In this document: in pieces, positions 8,992-53,799 of the stretch | How positions within the stretch are numbered: the stretch's first letter is position 1 | Layout: the number at the start of each line of letters is the position of its first letter | Origin: a virus | Direction: 5' to 3' (one strand) | Length of the DNA stretch: 64,000 nt | Virus record (IMG/VR): IMGVR_UViG_3300042892_002240 | Span: 28,495-92,494 of that record | Notes under the pieces: model-generated | What the model was told of the DNA's origin: nothing | What the model saw: the letters and a program-made list of their open reading frames with translations, nothing else | Database searches by the model: none | Made by a program: the position numbers and the translations under genes

Positions 8992-9074
8992 AGCCCCAGT
9001 ATAGAGGGTCTTTTTAAAAGATTACAACCCGGCTGTTGCAAAAGCCACAAGATCTCGTGTACAGTCATGGACCC

Positions 9075-10316
9075 ATGACCACCAACGTTTTTGACGGCCC
9101 TTTCTTAGCAGTCCCAGTTTGGGCTGTTGGGGAAATTAGGGATTACGGACAGCCCCGAGATTTACAAGTCTTGCTTGGGTTGGTCGCCCTTATGGAACGC
9201 CGAACCAAAGAAATTGCAGCTTCTGTAATACAGATAGCCGAGTATGTTGGTGTCTCAAAAGAGACCGCAAAACGGTCACTAAAGTGGTTGGCAGACCACA
9301 AAGTAATCACAGTTATCCACAGGCAAAAACCATTAGTAAATGTTTACACACTGCACTACACACCGCCCGTTAAACACGGAGATAGGGTCATGGGTGACCC
9401 TATGATGGGGTCACGAGAGACCCTATATGGGGTCACAGAAGACCCTATGGTGGGGTCACAGGTGACCCTATCTACAACAACAAAAGACCAGCATGATGAA
9501 CCTTTTTCAAATTTCAATATAAAGATACTAAATAGAAGTACTAAAGAGATAGTAAAGAAAGCCGCAAGCGGCACGGAGGGCGAGATGATTTTAGGTTCAG
9601 ATCCAGACGATCCAGTTAGTGGTTTTGAACTTCCCCCAAAGAAAAAAGTACCTAGAAAAACAAATCAGTTTGTTAACCATTTCCTCAGCAACAAACACTC
9701 AATCATGTCTAGCTCACACAGTCCAAAAGATGTAATGATTTTAAGAAAAACGTTTAGCACCTTGATTGACTCAGGTTTAACAGAGTTCACCATCATGCAA
9801 ATGGTCACAAAATTCTTTTCGGTACAACGTTGGCGGGAAGCAGACAACACTGTTTTGTTATTTTGCACCAAAGACATCCAACAGAAATTGATGGAGCAGG
9901 TTGAAACAACAGTAGTTTCAGACAACCCCGTATTGTCCCTGATGATGAATGACTTTGAGCGCCTAGATCTTGATATCCCCTGGCCAGCAGCAATGGACTT
10001 AGTTCTTAAAAAAGTTGTCATTCGTCACGGCATGGATGTTTGCTACAGATATCCTGAAATTGTTGCTGAGTTAATAACCATCCACAACGGTGCGTTTTAC
10101 TCAGATGAATTTAATACTTCTTTGTCTGCGCTAAACTCTCTTATAAGAGTTATATCCGGAGAAGAACAAGAAGACTCAGCGTTGCTTTTAAAAGAAGTTG
10201 CGCACTTGGGTTTACCAGAAGAACTACTTAAACTTTCAAGTTCCAATCTACGTCTACCAGCGGATTCCATTGTTGAAGCGGTCTACAACTACCGAAGGGC
10301 AACCCATGGACGATGA
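9075..10316 (+). CDS. Replication initiator-like protein with N-terminal winged helix
   Basis: I start at ATG 9075; an in-frame TTG at 9036 is possible, and neither has a strong ribosome-binding site. Residues about 25-95 form a helix-turn-helix domain (LLGLVALMERRTKEI, SVIQIAEYVGVSKETAKRSL, WLADHKVITVI) as in phage replication initiators and DnaD-like proteins. The middle is a low-complexity stretch that coincides with four DNA repeats. The C-terminal half is helical. It heads the replication operon before the helicase loader, as lambda O precedes P. It may bind its own internal repeats as origin. Confidence 0.65.
   Translation: MTTNVFDGPFLAVPVWAVGEIRDYGQPRDLQVLLGLVALMERRTKEIAASVIQIAEYVGVSKETAKRSLKWLADHKVITVIHRQKPLVNVYTLHYTPPVKHGDRVMGDPMMGSRETLYGVTEDPMVGSQVTLSTTTKDQHDEPFSNFNIKILNRSTKEIVKKAASGTEGEMILGSDPDDPVSGFELPPKKKVPRKTNQFVNHFLSNKHSIMSSSHSPKDVMILRKTFSTLIDSGLTEFTIMQMVTKFFSVQRWREADNTVLLFCTKDIQQKLMEQVETTVVSDNPVLSLMMNDFERLDLDIPWPAAMDLVLKKVVIRHGMDVCYRYPEIVAELITIHNGAFYSDEFNTSLSALNSLIRVISGEEQEDSALLLKEVAHLGLPEELLKLSSSNLRLPADSIVEAVYNYRRATHGR
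9385..9471 (+). repeat. Four palindromic iterons inside the initiator gene
   Basis: The unit GGGTCA-N5..6-GACCCTAT occurs four times, with left arms at 9385, 9408, 9430 and 9453, a period of 22-23 bp (about two helical turns). Each unit is itself an imperfect palindrome. Because 22 and 23 are not multiples of three, the encoded amino acids differ between copies, so the DNA is what repeats. Iterons inside an initiator gene are known from lambda-type origins. Confidence 0.85.
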
Positions 10317-34809: not shown

Positions 34810-35184
34810 ATGGATTGGCTTGAGCAATCTGCTTGCCGTGGTAAAAATGTTGACATGTGGTATGCGCCACTAGATGCATCAAACCCTAATGATTACTACG
34901 CTGTAGGTAAAACTGCTTGTAGAAATTGTTCTGTGTGGAAAGATTGCATGAAGTTAGGTGCAGAAGAAACATGGGGCATGTGGGGTGGGTTAACACCACA
35001 AGAGCGTAGAGGTACAGTAAAACTTCAACACGGAACACTTGAGAGTTACCGAAAAGGTTGCCGGTGTACTCCGTGTATTGATGAATCAATTGCTGCTATG
35101 GACTACATCATGCCAATAGTTCTTCCTTCTCGCGGAGAAACTTTTGATGTAAAGTCCCTGCTCTACGCACTAATTAATCCTTGA
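34810..35184 (+). CDS. WhiB-like iron-sulfur transcription regulator (first copy)
   Basis: In this 124-residue protein four Cys (C9, C37, C40, C46) are in the C-x(n)-C-x2-C-x5-C layout that binds the WhiB [4Fe-4S] cluster. The WhiB turn GMWGG (56-60) follows, with LTPQERR. WhiB proteins bind the primary sigma factor and tune host transcription; phage WhiB proteins can repress host whiB or block division genes (established for mycobacteriophage TM4). An extra pair, GCRCTPC, near residue 82 is not part of the core. No clear ribosome-binding site precedes the ATG. Confidence 0.9.
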   Translation: MDWLEQSACRGKNVDMWYAPLDASNPNDYYAVGKTACRNCSVWKDCMKLGAEETWGMWGGLTPQERRGTVKLQHGTLESYRKGCRCTPCIDESIAAMDYIMPIVLPSRGETFDVKSLLYALINP

Positions 35185-36225: not shown

Positions 36226-37267
36226 TTGGCAAGCCCCGCTTAGACCCGAAGAGAACCACCGATGGGGTGGATCAGGATGGGCACGAATTGGCCAATACTT
36301 AAAGTACCTACCTGAAGATACGGTCATTGGTACATTGGCCTGGAACAACGAAGATCACTTTGTAATTATTGATCACCTCACAAAAGAGCAATGTGAAGTT
36401 GACACCATCCTCATGCAACGTTTGATGCATGGAGGTATCAACGAACACATTTCTCAAGCCCAAGCCTACGGTCAAAAGTTTATTAATGATATTGACGACT
36501 GGTATTGGGGAGTATCTCCTTCCAACAAAGCGTTTAACCACAACCACCCTCAAGTAAACCCTAATGAAAACATTAACCATTACAGAGGGACTATTGCTAA
36601 ATCAGACATGGTGCTTTGTAGCACTCCTTACTTGCAAGATCGTTTACGTGATTTGGTAAAAGGTGAAATGATTCTGCTAGAAAACACCATTGATTTATCT
36701 AGGTTTACACAACACATTGACTCCGGAGACACAGCCCCAACTGTTGGTTGGGTAGGCAGTACCGCTCATAGAAGTGGGGACATTGAAACGCTTCGTGGTG
36801 TACTAGACGTAATGGCAAAACGTGGTGACATCAAGCTTTATCATGGTGGAAACCACATGAGCTATCCAACCTTTGCATCTCTACTTAACGTTTCAGACGA
36901 ATTAGTTTCTACGGCCCCGCTACACCCTATTGAAACTTACGCAACGCTCATGTCCATGGACATTGGGATCATTCCGTTACGTGACTTCCCATTCAACCGC
37001 TGCAAGTCAGATATCAAAGGAATGGAGTACGCAGCTTCAGGCATTCCTTTTATTGCGCAAAACTTAGATGCCTATGTAAAACTTCATGAACAATTAGGTG
37101 TTGGCAGAGTAGCTAAGAAACCTGCTGATTGGATTAAGCACTTAAAACAACTGATTGCTGATCCGGAGTTGCGCAAAGAAGAGGGAATGCGCAACAGAGA
37201 AGCAATTGCATCAAGAGATATATCTTTTGGTGCTAAACGATTTGTTGATGCAATTAACAGCCTGTAG
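36200..37267 (+). CDS. Glycosyltransferase, GT-B type
   Basis: The start is ATG 36200 after GAAGGACACA. The 355-residue protein has an N-terminal IASGDW ... GSGWARIGQYLKYLPEDT half. The C-terminal half shows ILLENTIDLSRF, TVGWVGSTAHRSGDIETLRG, then IDIGIIPLRDFPFNRCKSDI with KGMEYAASGIPFIA, the acceptor/donor-binding region of family 4-like enzymes. It may decorate virion proteins, DNA or the host surface. Two further glycosyltransferases lie at 57952 and 58568. Confidence 0.75.
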   Translation: MKLGIASGDWQAPLRPEENHRWGGSGWARIGQYLKYLPEDTVIGTLAWNNEDHFVIIDHLTKEQCEVDTILMQRLMHGGINEHISQAQAYGQKFINDIDDWYWGVSPSNKAFNHNHPQVNPNENINHYRGTIAKSDMVLCSTPYLQDRLRDLVKGEMILLENTIDLSRFTQHIDSGDTAPTVGWVGSTAHRSGDIETLRGVLDVMAKRGDIKLYHGGNHMSYPTFASLLNVSDELVSTAPLHPIETYATLMSMDIGIIPLRDFPFNRCKSDIKGMEYAASGIPFIAQNLDAYVKLHEQLGVGRVAKKPADWIKHLKQLIADPELRKEEGMRNREAIASRDISFGAKRFVDAINSL

Positions 37268-37277
37268 GATACACACT

Positions 37278-37709
37278 ATGAACGAGACCACTGTTGTATC
37301 TGCATTAGTTGACCTTCCTCAATTAAAAGAATGGGGGGATGGTAGATGGCGTGTAAAAGCAGCATGCGCTAACAGCGACACCGAAAAGTTCTTCCCTAAC
37401 AGAGATGGGGTTGACGCTGCCATGATTGTTGCTCAGGCACAGCTATGTTGTGCTACATGCACAGTGCGTAAAGAATGTTTAGAGTTTGCGCTAACTAACA
37501 AGCTTAAGTATGGTATTTGGGGTGGAGTAACTTCTCGGAATCGCCGTGGTTTAGAGTTAGAGCATGCTGAAGAAGCATCAAAGCTAACAGCAACTGGTCT
37601 TATTAAAATATTGCGTAAATTAAAAGACGCAACTCCTTTAAAAACTTCAGCAAAAATGATGAATTTGGATTTAGATGAGTTTCGTGAGCTTTTATCTCAA
37701 AAAAAGTAG
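37278..37709 (+). CDS. WhiB-like iron-sulfur transcription regulator (second copy)
   Basis: The start is ATG 37278 after AGGATACACACT. In this 143-residue protein the Cys are at 30, 58, 61 and 67, followed by GIWGGVTSRNRRG (79-91). A C-terminal extension has helical repeats ending DLDEFRELLSQKK. It is clearly diverged from the copy at 34810. Its stop directly abuts the stop of the convergent HNH gene, with no intergenic base. Confidence 0.9.
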   Translation: MNETTVVSALVDLPQLKEWGDGRWRVKAACANSDTEKFFPNRDGVDAAMIVAQAQLCCATCTVRKECLEFALTNKLKYGIWGGVTSRNRRGLELEHAEEASKLTATGLIKILRKLKDATPLKTSAKMMNLDLDEFRELLSQKK

Positions 37710-52074: not shown

Positions 52075-52644
52075 TCAGGCTGAGAGGAGTGCTAGGAATT
52101 CTGCCTTTTGGGCAGGAGTCCACTTGCCGACGTGCTTCTTGGCGCCATTGAATGACGAGGTGCCAAGTTGGGCATCGGTACGAGGAGTACTCTCACCCTT
52201 GGGGGTGATAGCACTCGTCAGTTTGCCAACAGCCTCGGCTGCTGTGCCACGGGCGATAGACGCCCAAACTGACTTACGGTCGATTTCGTCGACCCTCGCC
52301 AAGAGGGTAACCAACTGTTGGGGGTGAACCCCAATAGCAGTCTCTCCCTTGAAGAGTTTGCCAACTGCCATAAAAGCGAACAAAGCGTTCGCACTGACAG
52401 CGTGCACCTCGGAGACGGCAATGATGGCGTCGAATCGGCCAACCTTGAAAGTCGCCATATGACTCTCGATGGAGGAGACAGCAACGCTGCCCATTTCCAA
52501 CTGAGCCACAGAGAGGAGACCCATCTCTTCCGTGTGCTTAGAGGCAAGGATCATTGAGTCATTGAAGACCTTATTGATCGTTGCGATTGATACGACATTA
52601 GTAACCTCAGTCGTTGGTTGGTTTGCGGTTGCGGTAGCGTTCAT
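52075..52644 (-). CDS. Unknown protein, first gene of the leftward cluster
   Basis: The 189-residue protein begins with a Thr/Ala-rich MNATATANQPTTEVTNVV, then helical segments (TEEMGLLSVAQLEMGSVAVS, ANALFAFMAVGKLF). The C-terminal tail is basic: GAKKHVGKWTPAQKAEFLAL. The AGAAAGGTGCCTAGCA leader gives a fair ribosome-binding site. It is nearest to the divergent origin-like region, so probably early expressed. No family recognised. Confidence 0.55.
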   Translation of the reverse strand: MNATATANQPTTEVTNVVSIATINKVFNDSMILASKHTEEMGLLSVAQLEMGSVAVSSIESHMATFKVGRFDAIIAVSEVHAVSANALFAFMAVGKLFKGETAIGVHPQQLVTLLARVDEIDRKSVWASIARGTAAEAVGKLTSAITPKGESTPRTDAQLGTSSFNGAKKHVGKWTPAQKAEFLALLSA

Positions 52645-53226
52645 TGCTAGGCACCTTTCTGTTTAGGGAATGGAATTTGCTATAACAACTCGCGGGGACT
52701 AGATAACAATGGATAAGCAGGGGTCGCAATTTAGAATGAGCTAATTCTCAAACTTTAGCCCTATTTCTAGGACTAAATTACAACTTTGTAGAGGGGCAAC
52801 CTATGGTAGGTACCACTAGACCCACGAACCACTGTGGAATGTGCTTCTATTCATAGAGTCCTACTGTTTGACAGTCAGGCGAAGAGTATTGCCCCCCTTA
52901 CGGGGGTACTCACCTCGGAGACACTCTCGGTCGGGGCGACGGTGTGTCCCGTCGCTCACGCTCCCGTTGGGGAGGGGCGTCATTAGAGACCAGAGGTGGA
53001 CTCCAAAGGGTCAGGACCCAGCCCCCGATGATTGCCTAATTGCTGAATAGCCCTATTCCGAACTGGGGGGTTACCTGTGGATAAGTAGGCACCTGTGGAT
53101 AACTTTATATAGCCCTATTCTCCCTGTGGATAACTATTCATGATGCAATGCTCCAACGCGCAGGTTGGGCCAACATGTACAAAATATACATCGCCCAACC
53201 GTCTGTGGATAAGGTAATATTTAAAT
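52645..53226. promoter_or_regulatory. Divergent intergenic region with origin-like features
   Basis: 582 nt without a gene separate the leftward cluster from rightward genes. It holds four perfect TTATCCACA boxes on the - strand, three copies of AGCCCTATT (52757, 53049, 53111), an inverted repeat GGTTGGGC...GCCCAACC (53163-53200), G+C-rich hairpins (for example GCCCCCC-tta-CGGGGGT near 52893) and A+T-rich stretches. The mix of DnaA boxes, direct repeats and strand switch fits an origin or a DnaA-regulated divergent promoter region. Confidence 0.6.
53076..53212 (-). repeat. Four perfect DnaA boxes
   Basis: TGTGGATAA (reverse complement TTATCCACA) occurs at 53076-53084, 53094-53102, 53125-53133 and 53204-53212, all in one orientation and each preceded by C. 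This matches the strong DnaA-box consensus TTATNCACA. Four in 137 bp is far beyond chance. Confidence 0.88.
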
Positions 53227-53694
53227 ATGACGCTTAACCCTACCCAGTTCAATACACAAAAAAGGGTAGTTGATCCTGACGAGGCACACCCCAATGCTAA
53301 AGGGTTTAGCAATACTGGTCACCCTATATATGATCACAATGAATTTGTAAACTCTAAGTTTGAAAAGGGATGGATTAACACAGACGGAGACATCATCCAA
53401 GTACCAGAACACGGTGTTTATGAGCCACAATATGCCTATGGGTCTGGGATGGTGAGGTTGCATGTCAACCAAGGGAGATCACCATTTTTAGGTTTAGAAA
53501 TACGTGACAATAGACCCACCCAACAGCAACTAACCACTATCAGTGGACTCCACACACAATCACAGTCTAAGAAACTTTTACTAGATGTGCTTAAAACAAA
53601 CACAGATGATTCTGTAGATATGGAAAGTTATGAGCATGACGGTACCTCAAATAGTATTACAAAATTTATTAAGAAATCAACATCACATTTGTAA
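53227..53694 (+). CDS. Unknown protein downstream of the origin-like region
   Basis: This 155-residue protein begins MTLNPTQFNTQKRVVDPDEA. It is polar, with HGVYEPQYAYGSGMVRLHVN and a Lys-rich end (ITKFIKKSTSHL). No ribosome-binding site is evident before the ATG. The next three genes also carry similar Asn/Pro/Asp-rich text. No family recognised. Confidence 0.55.
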   Translation: MTLNPTQFNTQKRVVDPDEAHPNAKGFSNTGHPIYDHNEFVNSKFEKGWINTDGDIIQVPEHGVYEPQYAYGSGMVRLHVNQGRSPFLGLEIRDNRPTQQQLTTISGLHTQSQSKKLLLDVLKTNTDDSVDMESYEHDGTSNSITKFIKKSTSHL

Positions 53695-53799
53695 CGGTAT
53701 TTCTAATCTCGAGGGGTAAATGATTCTAACTTCGAGGGGTCGGCCCAACCGTCACATGGATAATGTAATATAGAACTATTCTTAACTAAGGAGTTAACC

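Follow-up and report, generated by a model that had tools for sequence, protein, structure and literature searches.

The four exact DnaA boxes (TTATCCACA) clustered between two divergent genes of a 92.5-kb actinobacteriophage, distant kin of Streptomyces phage BRock, are probably a control site that binds host DnaA within a divergent promoter/operator region, and not the main replication origin; we put the probability of this reading, made from sequence comparison, at about 55 %. It draws on the boxes, their conservation in relatives, the promoter-like and operator-like sequences beside them and a separate candidate origin with iterons, from which we infer DnaA binding, an effect on transcription and titration of DnaA. 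A further-reaching version, in which a family of actinobacteriophages would carry an array that mimics oriC and serves both as a sensor of host DnaA and as a multicopy sink that shuts off initiation on the host chromosome, is put forward tentatively, with the odds somewhat against it.

The box array and its divergent gap

The window is the whole stretch of DNA that was analysed, 64,000 nucleotides representing bases 28495–92494 of an IMG/VR virus record of 92,494 b, and all coordinates are those of the window. The preliminary description had reported four perfect, co-oriented DnaA boxes within 137 bp at the point where leftward and rightward genes diverge. Exact copies were found at these sites (53076–53212), all on the minus strand (TGTGGATAA on the plus strand), and the gap between the two ORFs holds the whole array.

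52075–52644, minus strand: leftward gene, 189 aa (ORF list; no family match)
52645–53226, no strand: divergent non-coding gap holding the whole array (ORF list; equivalent gap in relatives)
53076–53084, minus strand: DnaA box 1, TTATCCACA (sequence match)
53094–53102, minus strand: DnaA box 2, TTATCCACA (sequence match), 2 nt upstream of -10-like TTATAT
53125–53133, minus strand: DnaA box 3, TTATCCACA (sequence match)
53204–53212, minus strand: DnaA box 4, TTATCCACA (sequence match), 2 nt upstream of -10-like TAATAT
53227–53694, plus strand: rightward gene, 155 aa (ORF list; no family match)

Only one further exact copy of TTATCCACA/TGTGGATAA, at 9313 on the plus strand, is present in the whole 92,494 b record. 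A second-order Markov estimate predicts 0.62 exact boxes per whole record and 0.004 per 582 bp gap, and the estimated probability of finding four exact boxes within 137 bp anywhere is approximately 1e-10. As one-mismatch DnaA-like boxes are at the chance level in the whole window (19 seen vs 18 expected), the signal lies in the exact, clustered boxes only. With just five exact copies in the record, TGTGGATAA was rejected as a general phage promoter element.

The genes on either side of the gap are not constant. In relatives, a different gene occupies the place of the rightward gene, and the similar-sized ORFs at the place of the leftward gene are too divergent to align well; a profile of the leftward protein and its counterparts was likewise too divergent for use. 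The gap (52645–53226) gave no Rfam match that would indicate a structured RNA, and a search of isolated-phage DNA with the array region found no match.

Promoter-like and operator-like neighbours of the boxes

The array is interspersed with short sequences resembling promoter and operator elements.

52757–52765, plus strand: third AGCCCTATT copy, in the left part of the gap (repeat search)
53045–53058, plus strand: palindromic operator-like site GAATAG-CC-CTATTC, upstream member of a conserved TAGCCCTATTC pair
53105–53110: -10-like TTATAT, 2 nt past box 2
53111–53120, plus strand: AGCCCTATTC, directly after -10-like TTATAT, downstream member of the conserved TAGCCCTATTC pair
53163–53200, no strand: operator-like inverted repeat, GGTTGGGC (53163–53170) and GCCCAACC (53193–53200) with a 22-nt spacer (direct reading)
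53215–53220, plus strand: -10-like TAATAT, 6 nt before the ATG at 53227 (direct reading)

DnaA boxes thus stand at defined positions beside a predicted promoter, as at lambda pR. The promoters were assigned by comparison among relatives and are predicted only; a consensus promoter scan of the window did not list the -10-like hexamers by boxes 2 and 4. The arrangement in which a box is followed after 2 nt by a -10-like hexamer is fixed in the present phage (G000), G014 and G002, and a degenerate box and -10-like copy at 53757–53771 have a layout like that of boxes 2 and 4. As no Shine-Dalgarno sequence was seen ahead of the ATG at 53227, a leaderless message is possible.

The three direct repeats of AGCCCTATT and the inverted repeat noted in the preliminary description are also present, the former at 52757, 53049 and 53111, the latter as GGTTGGGC and GCCCAACC by direct reading. 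The AGCCCTATT repeat is one half of the palindrome GAATAG-CC-CTATTC. The members of the TAGCCCTATTC pair are 43–66 bp apart in most relatives, and in G018 and G025 a variant, AGACCTATTC, lies directly 3' of TATAAT; the AGCCCTATT/AGACCTATTC element is likely to be an operator at the transcription start. Since the iterons described below differ among relatives while TAGCCCTATTC stays constant, AGCCCTATT was rejected as a site bound by the replication initiator. Part of the inverted repeat, GCCCAACCGTC, recurs at 53743. Repeated palindromes, e.g. GTGACAAATGTCAC and GTGACGAACGTCAC, were also seen beside DnaA boxes in the divergent gaps of three relatives (L160, L161 and L162), and are possibly the operator of another regulator.

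The phage, its likely hosts and the DnaA that would read the boxes

The phage encodes baseplate-wedge proteins, a DnaB-like helicase, a DnaC-like loader, a primase, a DNA polymerase and a UvsX-like recombinase, and its capsid protein shares 58 % identity with the BRock (Streptomyces phage) capsid protein. It also carries two WhiB-family genes.

34810–35184: WhiB-family gene (family match)
37155–37709: WhiB-family gene (family match)

Because WhiB is encoded in 14 of the 15 phage records tested (the present phage included) and, among 14 control genomes, only in Corynebacterium, the hosts are very likely actinobacteria.

At all nine positions, TTATCCACA is the high-affinity DnaA box of Escherichia coli and Bacillus subtilis, and the box of Streptomyces and Mycobacterium is tabulated as TTGTCCACA (PMC4285127). 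No DnaA C-terminal domain was found in the ten phages tested, and host DnaA is hence the likely, and simplest, reader of the boxes. That they would be genuine DnaA boxes usable by the host protein, as first proposed, is strongly supported by their conservation in relatives.

Triple TTATCCACA arrays occur in 15 of 198 genomes sampled from the phylum of Terracoccus and are absent from the other 183, which, like the different box of Streptomyces, counts against the control-site reading. Twelve of the loci with such arrays, placed between dnaA and dnaN by reading the translated ends of the ORFs by eye as DnaA and DnaN, contain 12–18 boxes each when TTGTCCACA is included in the count. Box spacings in actinobacterial oriC include 12, 17–18, 20–23 and 32 bp, and those in the phage arrays are, among others, 11–12, 18, 20–22 and 30–32; a test for helical phase of the phage box spacings was weakly positive (p 0.017 for all spacings, 0.054 for unique ones). 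The phage array therefore resembles the oriC of the dnaA-dnaN region in its spacings and, for some genomes, in the TTATCCACA 9-mer itself, but it has no adjoining dnaA or dnaN, fewer boxes and no strong AT-rich tract.

Coincidental identity to a DnaA box, with the 9-mer serving as operator for some other regulator of phage or host, would account for its repetition, within a promoter region, among operator-like sites (GAATAG-CC-CTATTC and the inverted repeat of GGTTGGGC). We consider this highly improbable, however, given the identity to the high-affinity box at all nine positions, the invariance of the 9-mer among divergent relatives and the spacings like those of chromosomal oriC.

Conservation and turnover of the array in relatives

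Relatives of the phage were found in many IMG/VR contigs. In seven of them the equivalent divergent gap contains a cluster of 2–11 exact boxes (G001, 5; G002, 7; G014, 5; G011, 11; G020, 6; G012, 2; G013, 2). Equivalence of the gap was established from shared flanking genes for G001, G002 and G014, and from the layout and the TAGCCCTAT.C marker for the other relatives. A single exact box in the equivalent gap is common to G004, G006, G021 and G023, and in G010, G016, G018, G019 and G025 the marked gap is present with no exact box inside it. As these five have no boxes, the phage family can do without the array. BRock has four scattered TTRTCCACA sites that form no cluster, and no close pair of boxes was found in three other BRock-type isolates. 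A helicase tree places the array-bearing phages in one group (support 88/86) and those with a single box in a second (100/100); a capsid tree, for which other members were sampled, needs two changes.

The sequence of the gap and the number, position and, in part, orientation of the boxes vary among relatives, and the 9-mer stays exact. The 11 boxes of G011 are in both orientations within about 660 bp. A sister contig, L009, which is 98.8 % identical nearby, points to selection on the boxes, though this is a single comparison in which the differences are clumped. Neither boxes 1 and 2 nor the two AGCCCTATTC sites have changed in L009, and the spacers directly flanking the boxes differ; ahead of box 3 there is an inserted gene, box 3 is retained beyond the insert, and box 4 has been lost together with the gene at 53227–53694. 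The translation of the inserted ORF (6535–6790 of L009, between boxes 2 and 3) looks ParB-like by eye.

These comparisons bear on whether DnaA would act at the array as a transcription factor only, regulating the divergent promoters without titration of any consequence. The 2-nt interval between box and -10-like hexamer, fixed in G000, G014 and G002, the conserved operator-like sites adjoining the boxes and the precedent of lambda pR all suit such a role. Yet there are up to 11 boxes, many of them away from any recognisable promoter and turning over in number and position, and we regard control of the promoters alone as rather unlikely. Boxes in G001, G011 and G020 are away from any recognisable -10, and titration therefore fits them better than promoter control does. 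Overall, promoter control is favoured by the constant spacing in G000, G014 and G002, and titration by the way in which box number and position turn over elsewhere.

The probable replication origin

The array had been proposed as a second origin. A different site, within the initiator gene, is the more likely replication origin on sequence grounds, and it is separate from the array.

Approximately 9069–10316: initiator gene (matches to phage replication-initiation families)
9382–9471, plus strand: iterons, 4 x GGGTCAY...GACCCTAT, inside the initiator gene, candidate origin

The iterons are followed by an 80 % A+T tract starting at 9511, and iterons and tract together span 9382–9560. Each of the nine related loci tested carries its own iterons at this position, whether or not the array site has boxes, though the iteron sequences differ between relatives (GGGTCA..TGACCC, GGTGTCACCGGTGACACT, AGGTCACCGGTGACCT). 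Lambda O and ori-lambda likewise have the iterons inside the initiator gene. Although it lies near the iterons, the lone box at 9313 is taken to be a probable chance occurrence (0.62 expected per record) and not a part of the origin.

The array does include a cluster of DnaA boxes of the kind found at oriC. However, no strong AT-rich tract of the kind expected for an unwinding element adjoins it; the A+T maximum there is 0.70 (94th–97th percentile of the window) vs 0.80 at the iteron site. Raw skew tracks gene orientation and coding-strand third-position skew of the plus-strand genes shows no change across 53 kb, phage skew being a weak marker in either case. The box-free relatives keep the same replication genes as the array-bearing phages. 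With an iteron origin in every relative checked, replication genes retained where boxes are missing, and neither a strong AT-rich tract nor a skew signal at the array, a second origin is disfavoured and was rejected as the main role of the array.

An accessory role for the array as a DnaA-dependent, oriC-like origin is a narrower proposal; such an origin might for instance serve the first rounds, when the phage initiator has yet to be made. The close packing of exact boxes, including 12-bp tandem pairs like those of actinobacterial oriC, the large non-coding gap and the 11 boxes of G011, in both orientations over about 660 bp, lend themselves to it. It is nonetheless unlikely in view of the iteron origin and AT-rich tract that all nine relatives tested have within the initiator gene, the same replication genes in box-free relatives, A+T maxima at the relatives' arrays of just 0.56–0.72 per 50 bp, and the unchanged third-position skew of plus-strand genes across 53 kb. 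Occasional or early starts of replication at the array may nevertheless occur.

DnaA boxes are found on a phage genome, besides the lytic replication system, at P1 oriR, which is similar to other theta plasmid origins in this respect, and the array shares this feature. In contrast to P1 oriR, the array has no recognised adjoining Rep gene and no iterons, these being at 9.4 kb, and a set of Rep gene, iterons and partition genes like that of oriR was not found there. No recognised Rep family was detected in the flanking genes tested, where a Rep of unknown family is possible. An origin for a plasmid prophage was rejected, as the present phage has no ParA-type match (PF13614).

Proposed function and comparison with known systems

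Transcription control and DnaA titration are the options from the preliminary description that the evidence leaves standing. In the reading that we prefer, a DnaA-binding control site, host DnaA would bind the boxes of the array cooperatively and act on the divergent promoters, boxes 2 and 4 being 2 nt upstream of -10-like hexamers, and expression of the flanking gene blocks would thereby follow the DnaA state of the cell. As phage copies multiply, the array could tie up DnaA and lower firing at the host oriC. In having high-affinity boxes packed into a non-coding stretch, the array matches one feature of a datA-like site.

Each part of this proposal has a counterpart in a known system. In lambda, DnaA acts on replication via pR even though the phage has its own initiator, O (PMC7466680, PMC8203912). 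As here, host DnaA would act at a phage promoter in a phage with its own initiator and an iteron origin in the initiator gene; the array differs in having several exact consensus boxes, 44 kb from the iteron origin, and its effect is putative. Titration of DnaA by chromosomal sites is supported in E. coli (PMC12371093), where datA and regions of high DnaA-box density have this role (PMC12371093, PMC4585315). The array is similarly a box-dense non-coding stretch that could hold DnaA away from oriC, but it is on a phage, would be multicopy during infection and lies inside a promoter region.

The earlier premise that phages with an initiator of their own rarely keep DnaA boxes is doubtful in the light of lambda pR (PMC7466680, PMC8203912) and of a scan in which three exact boxes with gaps of 32 bases or less were found in at least 120 IMG/VR contigs. 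Among the matches listed, the G+C content of these contigs ranges from 28 % to 66 % and the TAGCCCTAT.C marker is in none of 120 three-box stretches. Though some of the contigs may be misfiled host origins, their number suggests that the array habit is wider than the present phage family. No report of phage DnaA-box arrays of this kind was found in the literature searched, subscription journals being mostly outside it. Should host DnaA bind the array, the phages would read or drain the host's licence to replicate by DNA alone, with no inhibitor protein. As otherwise similar relatives have from 0 to 11 boxes, the family offers a natural series in which the use of DnaA arrays to a phage could be tested.

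Small proteins of the rightward block

Small, otherwise unrelated proteins encoded in the rightward block start with a similar peptide, roughly (N)LxxQF (MTLNPKQFALYHGTS, MAAHENLSGQLSMF, MSAKNSLGDQFVRVFHSS). Starts of this type were seen in several relatives, namely L158, L160, L161, L297, L302, L303 and L305 and in the product of the window gene at 53227–53694. Some of the proteins look ADP-ribosyltransferase-like or acetyltransferase-like by eye, and the shared start resembles a targeting tag, for instance the sequence that directs T4 internal proteins to the capsid.
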